Origin: Hymenobacter jeollabukensis
GTDB lineage: Bacteria > Bacteroidota > Bacteroidia > Cytophagales > Hymenobacteraceae
DNA length: 64,000 nt
NCBI RefSeq assembly: GCF_005771675.1
Contig: NZ_VAJM01000004.1
Span: forward strand, 372,001 to 436,000
Direction of reading: 5' to 3'
Numbering within the stretch: the stretch's first letter is position 1; every line of letters begins with the position of its first letter. Shown piece by piece: positions 38,183 through 60,807 of the stretch. The notes below the pieces were generated by a model. The model was not told where the DNA came from and made no database searches. It saw only the letters and a program-made list of their open reading frames with translations. A program made the translations under genes and the position numbers.

Positions 38183-38321
38183 GGGGTGGTCGTTGGGAAT
38201 TGATGATGGGGTTCTGGCCCGCAAGGTAAGCACGAGTGCTTAGAGGGTGGTGCTTAGCGGGTAGTTTTTAGCGTGGGCAGCGGCTGGGCGCCGGGAAAGC
38301 CGATTCGGGGGGCGCGCCATG

Positions 38322-38600
38322 ACACCGGAAGGTTTGCGTGACAACGCTAGGTTCGCGTGACAATGGTCGGTTGGCCCTTACAACGGAGCGGGCACGGCTC
38401 ACAACGCCGACGATACGCCTCACAATGTGCCGCGCACGACTGACAATGCGGTCCGCAGGCCTTACAATGGCACCGGCACGGCTCACAACGCCCAGGTTAC
38501 CCGTCACAACGCGGCAGGTAGGGCTCACAACGCGGCGGCCATGCTTTGCAATGCGGCGCGCATGCCCAACAACCCGTCGAACAGGAGGCAAAACACCGTC
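38322..38600. repeat. 21-bp tandem array with phased ACAAYG motif
   Basis: The hexamer ACAAYG (or a one-base variant) starts at 38322, 38341, 38360, 38380, 38401, 38422, 38443, 38464, 38485, 38506, 38527, 38548 and 38569. The last nine steps are exactly 21 bases; the first three are 19, 19 and 20. Units end in a less conserved GCACGGCTC-like segment. Several reading frames on both strands stay open because the period is a multiple of three (giving seven-residue repeats such as RLTT or VVSRA), and none resembles a known protein. The 436-base gap 38183-38618 holds this array and the mdh upstream region. Confidence 0.85.
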
Positions 38601-38618
38601 GGCCACGTGGTCGGTGGC

Positions 38619-44786: not shown

Positions 44787-45632
44787 ATGCCCGCATTCCG
44801 TCTCCGCATCGTTGCCCTGCTTGTCTGCATCCTATCGTTGGGTGCGTGCAGCCCCTACCAGAAGCTGCTCAAGAGCACCGATGTCACCAAGAAGTACAAC
44901 GCGGCCATCGACTACTACGAGAACAAGCACGACTACTACCGGGCCGGCACCCTGCTGGAACCGCTGATTCCGTTGCTGAAGGGCCGCCCCGAGGCGGAAA
45001 AGGCCGAATTCTACTTCGCTCACACCAACTTTCGCCAGCGCAACTATACCCTCGCGGCCTACTACTTCGACCAGTTTGCCACCACCTACGGCGCCTCGCC
45101 GCTGGTAGAAGAGGCCGAGTTCATGCACGCCAAGTCGCTGTTTAAGGACTCGCCCGAGTTCGAGCTGGACCAGACCAACACGGTGCAGGCCATTGCCGCC
45201 ATTCAGGACTTTCTGAACCGCCACCCCGAAAGCAAGTTCCGGGCGGAAACGGAGAGCATGTCGAACGAGCTGCAGAAGAAAATGGAGGTGAAGGCCTTCG
45301 AAGGCGCCAAGCTCTACTACTCGTTGCGCTATTACCAGTCGGCCGTGGTGGCCCTGCAGACCTTCCAGCAGCAGTACCCGGCCTCGGTGTACGGTGAGGA
45401 AGCGGCTTACCTGCGCATCGTGTCGCAGTACGAACTGGCCCGCGAATCGGTGGAGGAAAAGCAGCGCGACCGGTACCTGGAAACCGTAGCCATCTACCAG
45501 AACTTCGTCGACACCTTTCCGCAGAGCAAGAGCCTGAAGCAGGCCGAAACGTACTACGACGGCGCGCAGAAATTCCTGAAAGACCACCCGGCCCCGACCG
45601 GCGCCCCCAACGCCGCCGCGGCCACGAACTGA
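44787..45632 (+). CDS. bamD: Outer-membrane assembly factor BamD
   Basis: Lipoprotein of 281 residues of the Bam complex, which helps fold beta-barrel proteins into the outer membrane. The signal ends in LSLGACSPY (lipidated Cys near residue 20). Tetratricopeptide-like helical pairs follow (KYNAAIDYYENKHDYYRAG, FYFAHTNFRQRNYTLAAYYF, EFMHAKSLFKD), as in BamD/YfiO. It heads the conserved block bamD-rpoZ-coaC/coaB-DUF4835-recN and has a textbook Bacteroidota promoter. The ATG at 44787 gives a normal lipoprotein signal. Confidence 0.93.
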   Translation: MPAFRLRIVALLVCILSLGACSPYQKLLKSTDVTKKYNAAIDYYENKHDYYRAGTLLEPLIPLLKGRPEAEKAEFYFAHTNFRQRNYTLAAYYFDQFATTYGASPLVEEAEFMHAKSLFKDSPEFELDQTNTVQAIAAIQDFLNRHPESKFRAETESMSNELQKKMEVKAFEGAKLYYSLRYYQSAVVALQTFQQQYPASVYGEEAAYLRIVSQYELARESVEEKQRDRYLETVAIYQNFVDTFPQSKSLKQAETYYDGAQKFLKDHPAPTGAPNAAAATN

Positions 45633-45635
45633 AAT

Positions 45636-45735
45636 TGAATGGCTAAATTGCTGAATTGCTAAATTGTTGGTCGTTCGACGAAACGCCACCAGAACATTCA
45701 ACAATTTAACCATTTAGCCATTTAACAATTTGACC
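45636..45735. repeat. AT-rich imperfect hairpin before rpoZ
   Basis: Left part about 45636-45670 is built of AAATTG/GCTGAATTGC words; the right part about 45693-45735 (CAACAATTTAACCATTTAGC) is its approximate complement with shifts. The perfect parts are AAATTGTTG and CAACAATTT. It is conspicuously AT-rich for this genome and ends 10 bases before rpoZ. A similar hairpin precedes obg. Confidence 0.6.
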
Positions 45736-45744
45736 TTTTAAGCC

Positions 45745-46086
45745 ATGAAAGTACCGAGCAACGTTCCTGCTTCCATCGTTACGCGCAACCTGTCGGATTT
45801 CGTGAAGGAAACCGGCAACGTGTACGAGTCGATTGCCATCATTTCGAAGCGCGCCAACCAGATTTCGGTGAAGCTCAAGGAAGAGCTGAACGGCAAGCTG
45901 TCGGAGTTTGCCACCACCGTCGACAACCTCGAAGAGGTGTTCGAAAACCGCGAGCAGATCGAAATCAGCAAGCACTACGAGCGCCTGCCCAAGCCCACGA
46001 ACCTGGCTATCGAGGAGTTTCTGGAAGGCAAAGTGACCTTCCGCACGCCCGAGCCGGAGGAGCCCACGGCCGAGAAAGCCGAGTAG
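45745..46086 (+). CDS. rpoZ: RNA polymerase omega subunit (Bacteroidota type)
   Basis: Protein of 113 residues matching the Rpb6/omega form of Bacteroidota, which stabilises RNA polymerase. The conserved core is SIVTRNLSDFVKETGNVYESIAIISKRANQIS (about residues 10-41), followed by a helical stretch EELNGKLSEFATTVDNLEEVFE. It sits between bamD and coaC in the usual order. The start ATG at 45745 directly follows the AT-rich hairpin. Confidence 0.9.
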   Translation: MKVPSNVPASIVTRNLSDFVKETGNVYESIAIISKRANQISVKLKEELNGKLSEFATTVDNLEEVFENREQIEISKHYERLPKPTNLAIEEFLEGKVTFRTPEPEEPTAEKAE

Positions 46087-58698: not shown

Positions 58699-59562
58699 TC
58701 AGTAAAGCGAGTAGCCCAGACTGGCGCTTAGCTGCGCGTATTGGTCCACCGCGTTAAGCAGTAGCGCAACGCGCAGCCGCTGGACGTTGCGACTAATTTC
58801 GCCCTGCCATTGCCAGTAGCCCGGCCACCGCGTAGCCGTAAGCTGCAACGTGAGACGGGAAGGTTGAAAATAATGCCGGATACCACCTTCATAACCGAAA
58901 CCCGTGCTCCGTTCATCGATGATCCGGGCACGTCCGACGCCCAGCAGCAATACGGGTAGACGGTGGTAGAAATCGGCCTCCACCGTTAGGCTATGGCTTC
59001 TGAATTGGAGCGCTGAGGGGGTATTGCGCACAGCTTGCTGACGGATGCCTATATCGAAAGTACCTAAGCGGCTAACGTGCAGACCGAGCCATTCAAGCTG
59101 GAGGTGCTGTTGGAAATTACGCCGAAAATCAGTCTGATAGCCAATGGTAGCCCGCATCGGCAAAGAAAACCGGTAGCCATATACTTGGAGCCGTCCGCCA
59201 AACGGTGTGTGACGTAATCCGCTGACCAACTCAATAATTGCATCGGGAGCTAGGTTGCACCGTGTGCCGCCGCTGAGAGCTACACGGACTGAATCAGTAG
59301 TGACTACCAGCTGCTCGGCGGTTATGTAGCCGATAGATGAGAAACTCAATGAAATGCTCGTACTGTCAGCGGGCATGCACTTTAGTGAAAACGTGCCGTC
59401 GGTAGCAGTGCTGGTGGCGTTGTCACTGCGGCACTGCATCACCGTAACGCCAGGTATTCCTTCACCAGTAAAACGGTCCGTCACCCGCCCGACGATGGTG
59501 CGTTGCGCTAGCAGGGGCATACTCAGCAGTAAGCTGAGGCATAAGACAAAAAGCAGCTGCAT
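58699..59562 (-). CDS. Exported protein with carboxypeptidase-like regulatory domain
   Basis: Exported protein of 287 residues with a signal peptide (LLFVLCLSLLLSMPLLAQ). Residues about 20-90 form a CarboxypepD_reg-like Ig-type domain (RTIVGRVTDRFTGEGIPGVT), common in Bacteroidota surface and TonB-linked proteins. The rest, from about residue 100, is predicted to be beta-rich, perhaps a small barrel or a surface module; it matches no family I know. Its codons are more A/T-rich than those of its neighbours, so recent gain is possible. The ATG at 59562 gives a proper signal. Confidence 0.7.
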   Translation of the reverse strand: MQLLFVLCLSLLLSMPLLAQRTIVGRVTDRFTGEGIPGVTVMQCRSDNATSTATDGTFSLKCMPADSTSISLSFSSIGYITAEQLVVTTDSVRVALSGGTRCNLAPDAIIELVSGLRHTPFGGRLQVYGYRFSLPMRATIGYQTDFRRNFQQHLQLEWLGLHVSRLGTFDIGIRQQAVRNTPSALQFRSHSLTVEADFYHRLPVLLLGVGRARIIDERSTGFGYEGGIRHYFQPSRLTLQLTATRWPGYWQWQGEISRNVQRLRVALLLNAVDQYAQLSASLGYSLY

Positions 59563-59720
59563 GGGAATAGCCAACAAGGTTCGGCTATTGGATGCCGCCA
59601 TCTACGCAATTACACAAGCCAGTACTCCCGAAAACGGTCGGCAAGGCAAATAACGAACGGCCCTGGCGCCCAAAACGCTCCGTGAGCAAACCTGTAAGGC
59701 TGCACAATCTACGGCGGCGC

Positions 59721-59952
59721 CTCCCGGCTACTCATGAAGCCCTTTGTGCGCCGTAGTTGGGTGTCACGAGTACTCACGAGACATATTTCCAATCAGCAAA
59801 AGCTGTCACGAGTACTCATGACAGTCTAATCAAATCAACAAACCCCTCCACGAGTACTCATGAAGCCCTTGGCAATCTGCAAGAGCCCGTCGTGAGTAGG
59901 CGGGGCGGGGTTGCGGCTAATGCAACAACGGCCCGCGAGTACTCGCGGGCCG
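59721..59952. repeat. 42-bp tandem array with GAGTACTC palindrome
   Basis: TACTC-type anchors are at 59729, 59771, 59813, 59855 and 59897 (degenerate, TAGGC), each exactly 42 bases apart, and a sixth at 59940 (43). The units at 59763, 59805 and 59847 share the core GTCACGAGTACTCATGA or close variants, whose centre GAGTACTC is self-complementary. Units 1 and 4 also share TACTCATGAAGCCCTT. The last unit ends in a 24-base perfect palindrome (59929-59952) that may end the minus-strand gene. The spacing between cores is about 25 unique bases. The 418-base gap 59563-59980 holds only this array. Confidence 0.85.
59929..59952 (-). terminator. Perfect palindrome after the 231-residue gene
   Basis: A 24-base perfect palindrome centred on the GT/AC of GAGTACTC (arms CGGCCCGCGAGT). 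It lies 28 bases after the stop of the minus-strand gene. The T-tract is weak (TTGTTGC), so termination is plausible, not certain. Confidence 0.5.
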
Positions 59953-59980
59953 CTACGCACAACCAAACAAGAGCTCCAGC

Positions 59981-60676
59981 TTAGGCGGCCGAGGCGCGGG
60001 CTACCGGGGCAGAGGACTTGAGGCTGTACTTGCGCACCTTGCCGAAGTCGAAAAAGCGGTACACGGCGGCCGGCTCGTCGAAGTGCAGCTCCAGTTGGGC
60101 CTTCACGCGGCGCAGGGCGCGGGCCAGCCGCAGCCAGTCGCCCGAAATGGACACGCGGGCCGCGTCGATGATGGCCTCGGTGATGGTGCGGGCGTTGTCG
60201 GCCTGGGTTAGCTGCTGGTACACGGCGCGGGCGTCGGCGGGCAGGGCGGGGTAGTGCAGAGCCTCGTAGTGGGCTTCGTAGAGGGCCAGCAGGCTTTTCG
60301 ACTGCTGCAGCAGGTTGACCTGATCGAGCCGGGCCAAGCGGCTCTTCTGGTACTGCCGAAAGTCGGCGTACACCGGCAGCTTGCGCAGGCGGGGCGTCAC
60401 GTAGTCCTTCATCGTGTCGTCGACGAAGGTGAGCCAGTCTTTGCGGGCTGCCCGGAAGGCCTCGGTGCTACCGGCCGTGGCCCCACCGGCCTCGGTCAGG
60501 CTCACCTCGAAGGCATCGAGGGCGGCGGCCAGCTCCGTGAGGTGGGGGGCGAAAACGGCCGGCAGCTCGGCCTCGCGCAGGGCCGTGAGCACTGCCGTGC
60601 CCAGGGCCTTGAAGTTGACGCGGGAGATGGGCAGCGTCGTGAAGAAATTGTCGAAATACAGCTGGTAGGCAGGCAT
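59981..60676 (-). CDS. Uncharacterised helical protein
   Basis: Soluble, probably all-helical protein of 231 residues, with no signal or membrane segment. Typical stretches are LYFDNFFTTLPISRVNFKALG, TAVLTALREAELPAVFAPH, and LALYEAHYEALHYPALPAD. It may belong to a Bacteroidota-specific conserved hypothetical family, possibly DUF6261-like; I cannot confirm this. No catalytic motif is seen. The ATG at 60676 is chosen over a TTG at 60682. The 42-bp array begins just beyond its 3' end, and the terminal palindrome of the array may be its terminator. Confidence 0.65.
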   Translation of the reverse strand: MPAYQLYFDNFFTTLPISRVNFKALGTAVLTALREAELPAVFAPHLTELAAALDAFEVSLTEAGGATAGSTEAFRAARKDWLTFVDDTMKDYVTPRLRKLPVYADFRQYQKSRLARLDQVNLLQQSKSLLALYEAHYEALHYPALPADARAVYQQLTQADNARTITEAIIDAARVSISGDWLRLARALRRVKAQLELHFDEPAAVYRFFDFGKVRKYSLKSSAPVARASAA

Positions 60677-60807
60677 ATGCAATAACCTTAACCGGTGAAC
60701 AAACAGGCCCGACCAAGGGCGGGGCCAACCGGGTGCAAGGTATCAGCCCGCCCAACGCGGGGGTACCCGTGCCAGCGCGGTATTTATACTAGTGCCAGCC
60801 CGGATTT

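Follow-up and report, generated by a model that had tools for sequence, protein, structure and literature searches.

REP/BIME elements are palindromes tagged with GTAG or CGTC (PMC3733652). Like them, the arrays that we report here, found in the window (the whole 64,000-nucleotide stretch of Hymenobacter jeollabukensis DNA that was analysed) and in other genomes, are short intergenic palindromes, often in groups; unlike them, the window family has a fixed 42-bp register and a core specific to each array, and no fixed GTAG or CGTC tag was found among the columns of 63 unit dimers. BIME-2 elements are said to favour the 3′ ends of genes, as the palindromic form does here. Searching eight genomes of the genus for the Y1 transposase (PF01797) gave no match in G005, which bears arrays, four matches each in G003 and G007, both negative with our covariance model R1, and one in the window genome. 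A REP/RAYT origin was therefore rejected, as the transposase does not co-occur with the arrays in these eight genomes; judged by presence alone, a link in trans is possible. Heptamer direct repeats (TAACTGA) have been reported as intergenic tandem arrays in Cyanobacteria and Bacteroidetes (PMC4679880). Those repeats are 7-bp units of one sequence, whereas the arrays here consist of degenerate 21- or 42-bp units of many sequences. Cyanobacterial STRR sequences are of this heptamer-repeat kind. BrickBuilt of Porphyromonas gingivalis is presented as a minisatellite MITE with a 23-nt unit, a leader and a tail, and with 19 copies in one strain (PMC4596501). It is similar in being an intergenic short-unit array in a Bacteroidota genome and different in being one sequence, whereas the arrays here are unrelated motifs in one register. 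At two g4 loci, an inverted 8-bp repeat in the flank had pointed to a MITE, a reading that was dropped because none was seen beside the window array. The arrays also differ from CRISPR: their repeats are degenerate, with symmetry about the core as well as about the spacer centre, and not near-identical with unique spacers of near-constant length. Bidirectional intrinsic terminators resemble the window unit nearest the gene, and the arms of the units, but the remaining window units are mostly unstable as hairpins. A literature search, with subscription papers mostly outside its reach, found no description of such arrays, and their shared 21-base rhythm between genes hints at an undescribed structural DNA element.

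In the window array (59709-59961), five units follow one another in steps of exactly 42 bp, and the sixth comes after 43 bp. Its units, and the neighbouring gene, are as follows.

59709-59750, no strand assigned: unit 1, core GGCTACTC at 59726-59733
59751-59792, no strand assigned: unit 2, core GAGTACTC at 59768-59775
59793-59834, no strand assigned: unit 3, core GAGTACTC at 59810-59817, inner 20-bp palindrome near-perfect
59835-59876, no strand assigned: unit 4, core GAGTACTC at 59852-59859
59877-59918, no strand assigned: unit 5, core GAGTAGGC at 59894-59901
59920-59961, no strand assigned: unit 6, core GAGTACTC at 59937-59944, perfect palindrome at 59929-59952, placed at 43 bp
59981-60682, minus strand: neighbour gene, uncharacterised protein of 233 aa

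Re-reading the sequence confirmed the anchor spacing claimed by an earlier, sequence-only reading: the anchors TACTC/TAGGC stand at 59729, 59771, 59813, 59855 and 59897, in steps of 42 bp, and then, after 43 bp, at 59940. The same reading had described the last unit as a perfect 24-base palindrome, which is found at 59929-59952. It needs correcting in that not every core is GAGTACTC: each centre is GAGTACTC or, in the first and fifth units, a half-changed form of it. Nor are the spacers simply unique, as had been proposed. Across 29 dimers of the unit, taken from several genomes and with a majority consensus close to AAG.CC.TCCC-GAGTACTC-G.GA.GG.CTT, the 42 bp have dyad symmetry centred on the core and also on the spacer centre 21 bp away, with Watson–Crick pairing of 0.46-0.50 at these centres compared with 0.16-0.32 at the other centres tested. 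Because the dyad is present at both, the 42-bp unit consists of two inverted 21-bp halves. Near-invariant columns in the 63 dimers are G18, A22, C25 and T35, and A50, C57, G60, T63, A64 and C67. Tandem Repeats Finder detects just 59762-59863 (period 42), and its score of 104 there tops all 66 rows that it gives for the window. A Pfam scan, which covered four neighbouring proteins, gave no match at E ≤ 0.001 for the product of 59981-60682. For the window array, the start was set one base late (59710) in the frame check of the 21-bp arrays and in the power-spectrum, orientation, column-unevenness and folding analyses. The window array is real and non-coding, and represents the palindromic 42-bp version of a wider class of arrays between genes.

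The exact phasing that had been proposed for a DNA-level array extends to other copies. In 204 genomes of the family, pairs of GAGTACTC with starts 27-57 bp apart fell at 42 bp (15 pairs), 43 bp (3 pairs) and 27 bp (1 pair), placing 18 of the 19 at 42-43 bp; these pairs are not independent and come from 12 places, 11 of which have the 42-43-bp spacing. A PWM scan of 22 arrays gave 97 unit intervals, two isolated weak matches (L088:2071 and L104:1058) being omitted, with 79 at 42 bp, 13 at 43 bp, one at 41 bp and four doubled. Random scatter of the spacing in other copies, which would speak against helical phasing, is therefore absent. We counted 4 indel events (6 bp) per 136 substitutions within arrays and 9 events (215 bp) per 109 in their flanks, a depletion that is not significant (p=0.09).

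Covariance model R1 found arrays in 11 of the 204 family genomes at E ≤ 1e-5, a lower bound because the filters of the family scan are strict, and in four of the eight genus genomes at E ≤ 0.1. The window genome (G000) has a second GAGTACTC array (G000:C23:90113-90365) and one further array, on C2, with cores that are mostly GCCTAGGC. Many R1 arrays occupy orthologous loci across several species (locus nicknames, such as pabB, DHA2, HAD, otsA and msrA, give what we take the flanking proteins to be), and ortholog alignments show gains and losses of whole units. Among 21 arrays of the palindromic form, L095 and L085 included, 14 lie between convergent genes, seven between tandem genes and none between divergent genes. 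Counted by locus, 6/11 are convergent compared with 40/320 gaps of at least 200 bp (p=0.001), and 0/11 are divergent compared with 94/320 (p=0.02). At two loci (L086, L088, L092 and L087), palindromic arrays bear inverted repeats of 8-bp period on both sides, of GTGAATGAG or GTGAAATG type, with the same variant on both sides within one species. Degenerate 8-bp repeats also occur in the window at 45631-45746, where TAAATTGC... and CATTTAAC... oppose each other as an inverted pair.

Folding separates the last unit from most of the others. The unit 6 hairpin, with a predicted energy of -27.9 kcal/mol (z -4.1), is far stronger than the others and has TTGTTG after it on the minus strand; it is probably the intrinsic terminator of the minus-strand gene 59981-60682. 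Unit 3 also folds (-12.7 kcal/mol, z -3.0), whereas units 1, 2, 4 and 5 (z +0.25 to -0.71) fold no better than shuffles. Four end units of other arrays, chosen as the most palindromic, gave z -6.5 to -8.4. Each of these five arrays thus has a single near-perfect hairpin at one of its ends, and the other window units are mostly degenerate. Compensatory changes in the arms, a check suggested by the sequence-only reading, did not exceed shuffles around either fold centre (paired cells 64.4% compared with 64.1% shuffled when core-centred, and 64.0% compared with 64.4% when spacer-centred), and an RNA fold with compensatory arms was dropped for this reason. An Rfam search of window positions 59000-60800 gave nothing above the gathering score and two matches far below it.

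The register is not confined to GAGTACTC. We scanned for periodicity without reference to sequence, using an autocorrelation contrast against lags ±3 and ±6 with a threshold of 0.22; this statistic was chosen after a first scan without contrast had given mostly coding lags (multiples of 3). In 464 kb of the window's contig, the window included, 10 of 13 periodic matches fell at lags 21, 42, 63 or 84, and the same scan of 120 kb of 3-mer-shuffled DNA gave no matches. The motifs differ, among them CTCACAAC (the 38-kb array), TTCCAACGC, GTGTCGAAAGC, TTCCGC/TAAG, GCGAGGTTGCGG, CGTCCGGAAC and CCGCCTAGGCGG. Scaled up from this single contig, the number comes to ~130 arrays per genome (95% range 64-245). 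The window holds a second array of the class.

38282-38614 (feature row 38332-38583), no strand assigned: direct 21-bp repeats with a CTCACAAC-like core

Lags at multiples of 21 made up 6/7 matches in G022 (after eight CRISPR-type matches at lags 64/65 were dropped by eye), 1/3 in G032, 3/6 in G002 and 3/3 in G031 (one of them, by eye, in a coding repeat), all R1-positive; the R1-negative genomes gave 0/7 in G003, 0/6 in G007, 0/2 in G019 and, in another genus, 2/4 in G010, both weak and at lag 21. Excluding the CRISPR-type matches, the G031 coding match and G010, the pooled counts are 22/31 in five R1-positive genomes compared with 0/15 in three R1-negative ones (p=3e-6). They become 23/32 and 2/19 when the coding match and G010 are kept (p=3e-5), and 23/40 and 2/19 when the CRISPR-type matches are kept as well (p=7e-4). 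Loosening the threshold to 0.20 gave 12/19 in G000, 6/17 in G022 (CRISPR-type included) and 3/7 in G032, compared with 0/14 in G003, 1/8 in G007 and 2/6 in G010. R1 status separates the genomes incompletely, since G006, although R1-negative, carries a 21-bp array at the 38-kb locus. The CRISPR-type array of G022 (L152 5169-9026, G022:C1; lag 64-65) has repeats that end in GTGTGGAATTGAAAT. R1-negative G003 (L144, L145 and L147) carries degenerate 7/14-bp repeats with GAGTACT-like heptamers, with 0 matches at 21 bp where scanned.

Our own hexamer-based gene caller placed 23 of 24 arrays of the class between genes. Their orientation is background-like (15 tandem, 5 divergent, 3 convergent), so that a gyrase-like reading based on convergent genes is not supported for the class as a whole and is left for the palindromic form alone. 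Across 31 arrays, purine/pyrimidine power peaks at exactly 10.50 bp and A/T power has no peak, so that A/T phasing of the classical A-tract curvature kind is weak. By column permutation, a null that ignores base runs, the purine/pyrimidine signal has p=8e-10 for the 31 arrays; for the 19 that do not belong to the palindromic family the value is 0.0018, and the 38-kb window array taken by itself has no such signal (p=0.43). A contrast between core and spacer, with columns varying more in conservation than they would under uniform decay, was found in 16/24 arrays (p<0.05); the contrast is not significant in the two window arrays (p=0.49 and 0.54). In most of the 24 arrays, the third of the columns with the lowest conservation is close to random identity, and in 14 of them neighbouring units resemble each other more than distant units do in weak columns, by up to 0.20.

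Orthologous loci show what persists. The window array and its ortholog L022 are identical at 48/48 positions of the 8-bp cores and 150/204 others (p=3e-6), a test biased by the fact that L022 was itself found by its core; L018 and L082, a pair found by the model, agree at 44/48 core and 145/204 other positions (p=0.003). The neighbour gene of the window array was also searched as a protein, blind to arrays, and is present in five of the eight genus genomes. Downstream of its ortholog lie GAGTACTC in G002, GTCTAGAC at 42-43 bp in G001, CTTCTCGAAG at ~42 bp in G005 and, in G006, just one hairpin. A paralog in G000 (G000:C22:443363-444049), 64% identical and ~11 kb away, has its own 3′ array with a different core, CCGCCTAGGCGG, at 42-43 bp with one interval doubled. 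At the 38-kb locus, an ungapped 21-bp array is common to G000 and G002, and the arrays of G006 and G001 carry TGGAAACG and CCGAAGCC, respectively; by eye no array was seen in the gaps of ~74-185 bp in G003, G004, G005 and G007, and the G000 gap differs from these by more than the array because a 405-base gene is called there too. Mismatches between the G000 and G002 arrays fall in columns 5-7 and 11 (17/44, compared with 11/187 elsewhere; p=1.5e-7, the columns having been selected after the mismatches were seen): within the shared core it is the left part that changes, at a faster rate than the spacers, and unit-specific spacers stay. Because relatives keep the 21/42-bp register with other cores at two orthologous loci, the register outlasts the sequence. 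These data establish a strict 21-bp register common to unrelated motifs, non-coding and lineage-restricted, with turnover of the core.

As the most plausible single reading, held tentatively, we predict that the class of the window array is a helically phased protein-contact element. Two turns of B-DNA measure 21 bp. The repeats would place equivalent dyads or half-sites on one helix face, where an oligomerising or DNA-wrapping protein, of the nucleoid-protein or topoisomerase class, would touch them in phase and respond to spacing and local symmetry more than to any fixed word; the word common to an array would drift in concert as patches are converted from unit to unit. For the window array, this platform would sit directly past the probable transcription terminator. 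The spacing of 18/19 GAGTACTC pairs, the 10/13 blind-scan matches at multiples of 21 and the pooled excess in R1-positive genomes favour this reading, while the diversity of motifs tells against any known sequence-specific protein. The 10.50-bp peak also argues for it, but its null ignores base runs, its p value outside the palindromic family is 0.0018 and the 38-kb array lacks it. Core/spacer contrast in 16/24 arrays and core conservation in two ortholog pairs point the same way, although neither window array is significant for the contrast and the faster evolution of the left part of the 38-kb core is the opposite of simple site conservation. The lower indel count in arrays than in flanks agrees with contact without reaching significance, and the palindromic form, with 14/21 arrays convergent and none divergent, shows an orientation preference that the whole class lacks. 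Some species also lack arrays at the same loci.

Neutral molecular drive is also plausible, and we rank it next. Slippage or hairpin-primed template switching would give birth to the repeats, whole-unit length changes would keep the register and short conversion would homogenise the cores, with no function beyond the terminator hairpin. Such drive fits the concerted change of cores beside stable unit-specific spacers, the unrelated cores at orthologous loci, the short gaps of relatives without arrays, the gain and loss of whole units, and an adjacent hairpin with the same core. The somewhat greater likeness of neighbouring units in 14/24 arrays fits as well, but signs of recent duplication are weak, because 10/24 arrays lack it and, in most arrays, identity across the third of columns with the lowest conservation is near random. 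It also leaves unexplained why a 21/42-bp unit should be born frequently in some genomes and seldom or never in their relatives. We favour protein contact over neutral repeats, by a small margin, because chance duplication does not account for the constant unit.

That each unit (AAAAGCC...GGCTTTT) is a bidirectional intrinsic terminator, the tandem halting transcription from either side, we consider unlikely. The consensus arms are terminator-like, the palindromic form is placed convergently and five end units, selected for being the most palindromic, have folds with z from -4.1 to -8.4; yet just one of the other five window units folds beyond shuffles and the arms lack covariation. By eye, the DHA2-type locus has a separate hairpin-like inverted repeat beyond its array, and such a hairpin unit is missing from several of the direct 21-bp arrays.

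Less likely again is that the array serves as the operator of a single dedicated dimeric regulator, with GAGTACTC as the word that it reads. The identity of all 48 core positions in the ortholog and the second GAGTACTC array in the window genome would suit it, but the arrays adjoin different genes, and the binding of one dimeric protein to the palindrome, as envisaged by the sequence-only reading, does not carry over to other arrays of the same genome or to orthologous loci. Because unrelated cores keep the 21/42-bp register there, a single sequence-specific factor is insufficient for the class.

A living or decayed coding repeat of 7 or 14 residues is highly improbable, being ruled against by stop counts, by 43-bp intervals that shift the frame and by gene calls that place 23/24 arrays between genes, even though 21 bp is seven codons. 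Stops in 107 units of 19 arrays (L085, L089, L095 and L099 excluded) numbered 40, 33, 59, 30, 63 and 44 in frames +1, +2, +3, -1, -2 and -3, compared with 41.4, 40.2, 75.5, 47.4, 81.6 and 53.8 expected from independent columns. Four or five frames are below expectation, frame -1 clearly so (30 compared with 47.4), but none is open, and the VTSTHE-like frame offered as a decayed coding repeat shows no overall depletion. Some stop-free frame exists in 12/19 arrays and in several 21-bp arrays; it differs between arrays, and the window array has none. Variation is uneven by codon position in some arrays from distant phyla.

Beyond the family search, 25 stretches contain the exact triple GAGTACTC at 42 bp, mostly, by eye, as 42- or 21-bp arrays. 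Hymenobacter edaphi accounts for one stretch, and the rest come from Bacteroidota, Cyanobacteria, Verrucomicrobia, Pseudomonadota and other groups. This is occurrence and not preference, because the search was conditioned on 42-bp spacing. In the same loci, outside the selected arrays, 5/10 further periodic matches, two of them weak, had lags that are multiples of 21. The class may thus extend past Hymenobacter, with 21/42-bp GAGTACTC arrays in several phyla.

A broader reading is possible and, on balance, doubtful: that some bacteria carry about a hundred intergenic arrays written or maintained in a 21-bp register by a cellular process irrespective of sequence, each array's word being rewritten in concert while register and unit-specific spacers persist. 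If true, this would be a sequence-agnostic, phase-defined DNA element, possibly with dedicated homogenising or wrapping machinery. Intergenic repeats are usually classed by sequence; if the register is what is conserved, searches based on sequence miss the class. If real, the class would point to a protein or repair process that reads spacing and not words, and a conserved register would make DNA-phase-dependent chromosome organisation in Bacteroidota testable by half-turn shifts of the units.
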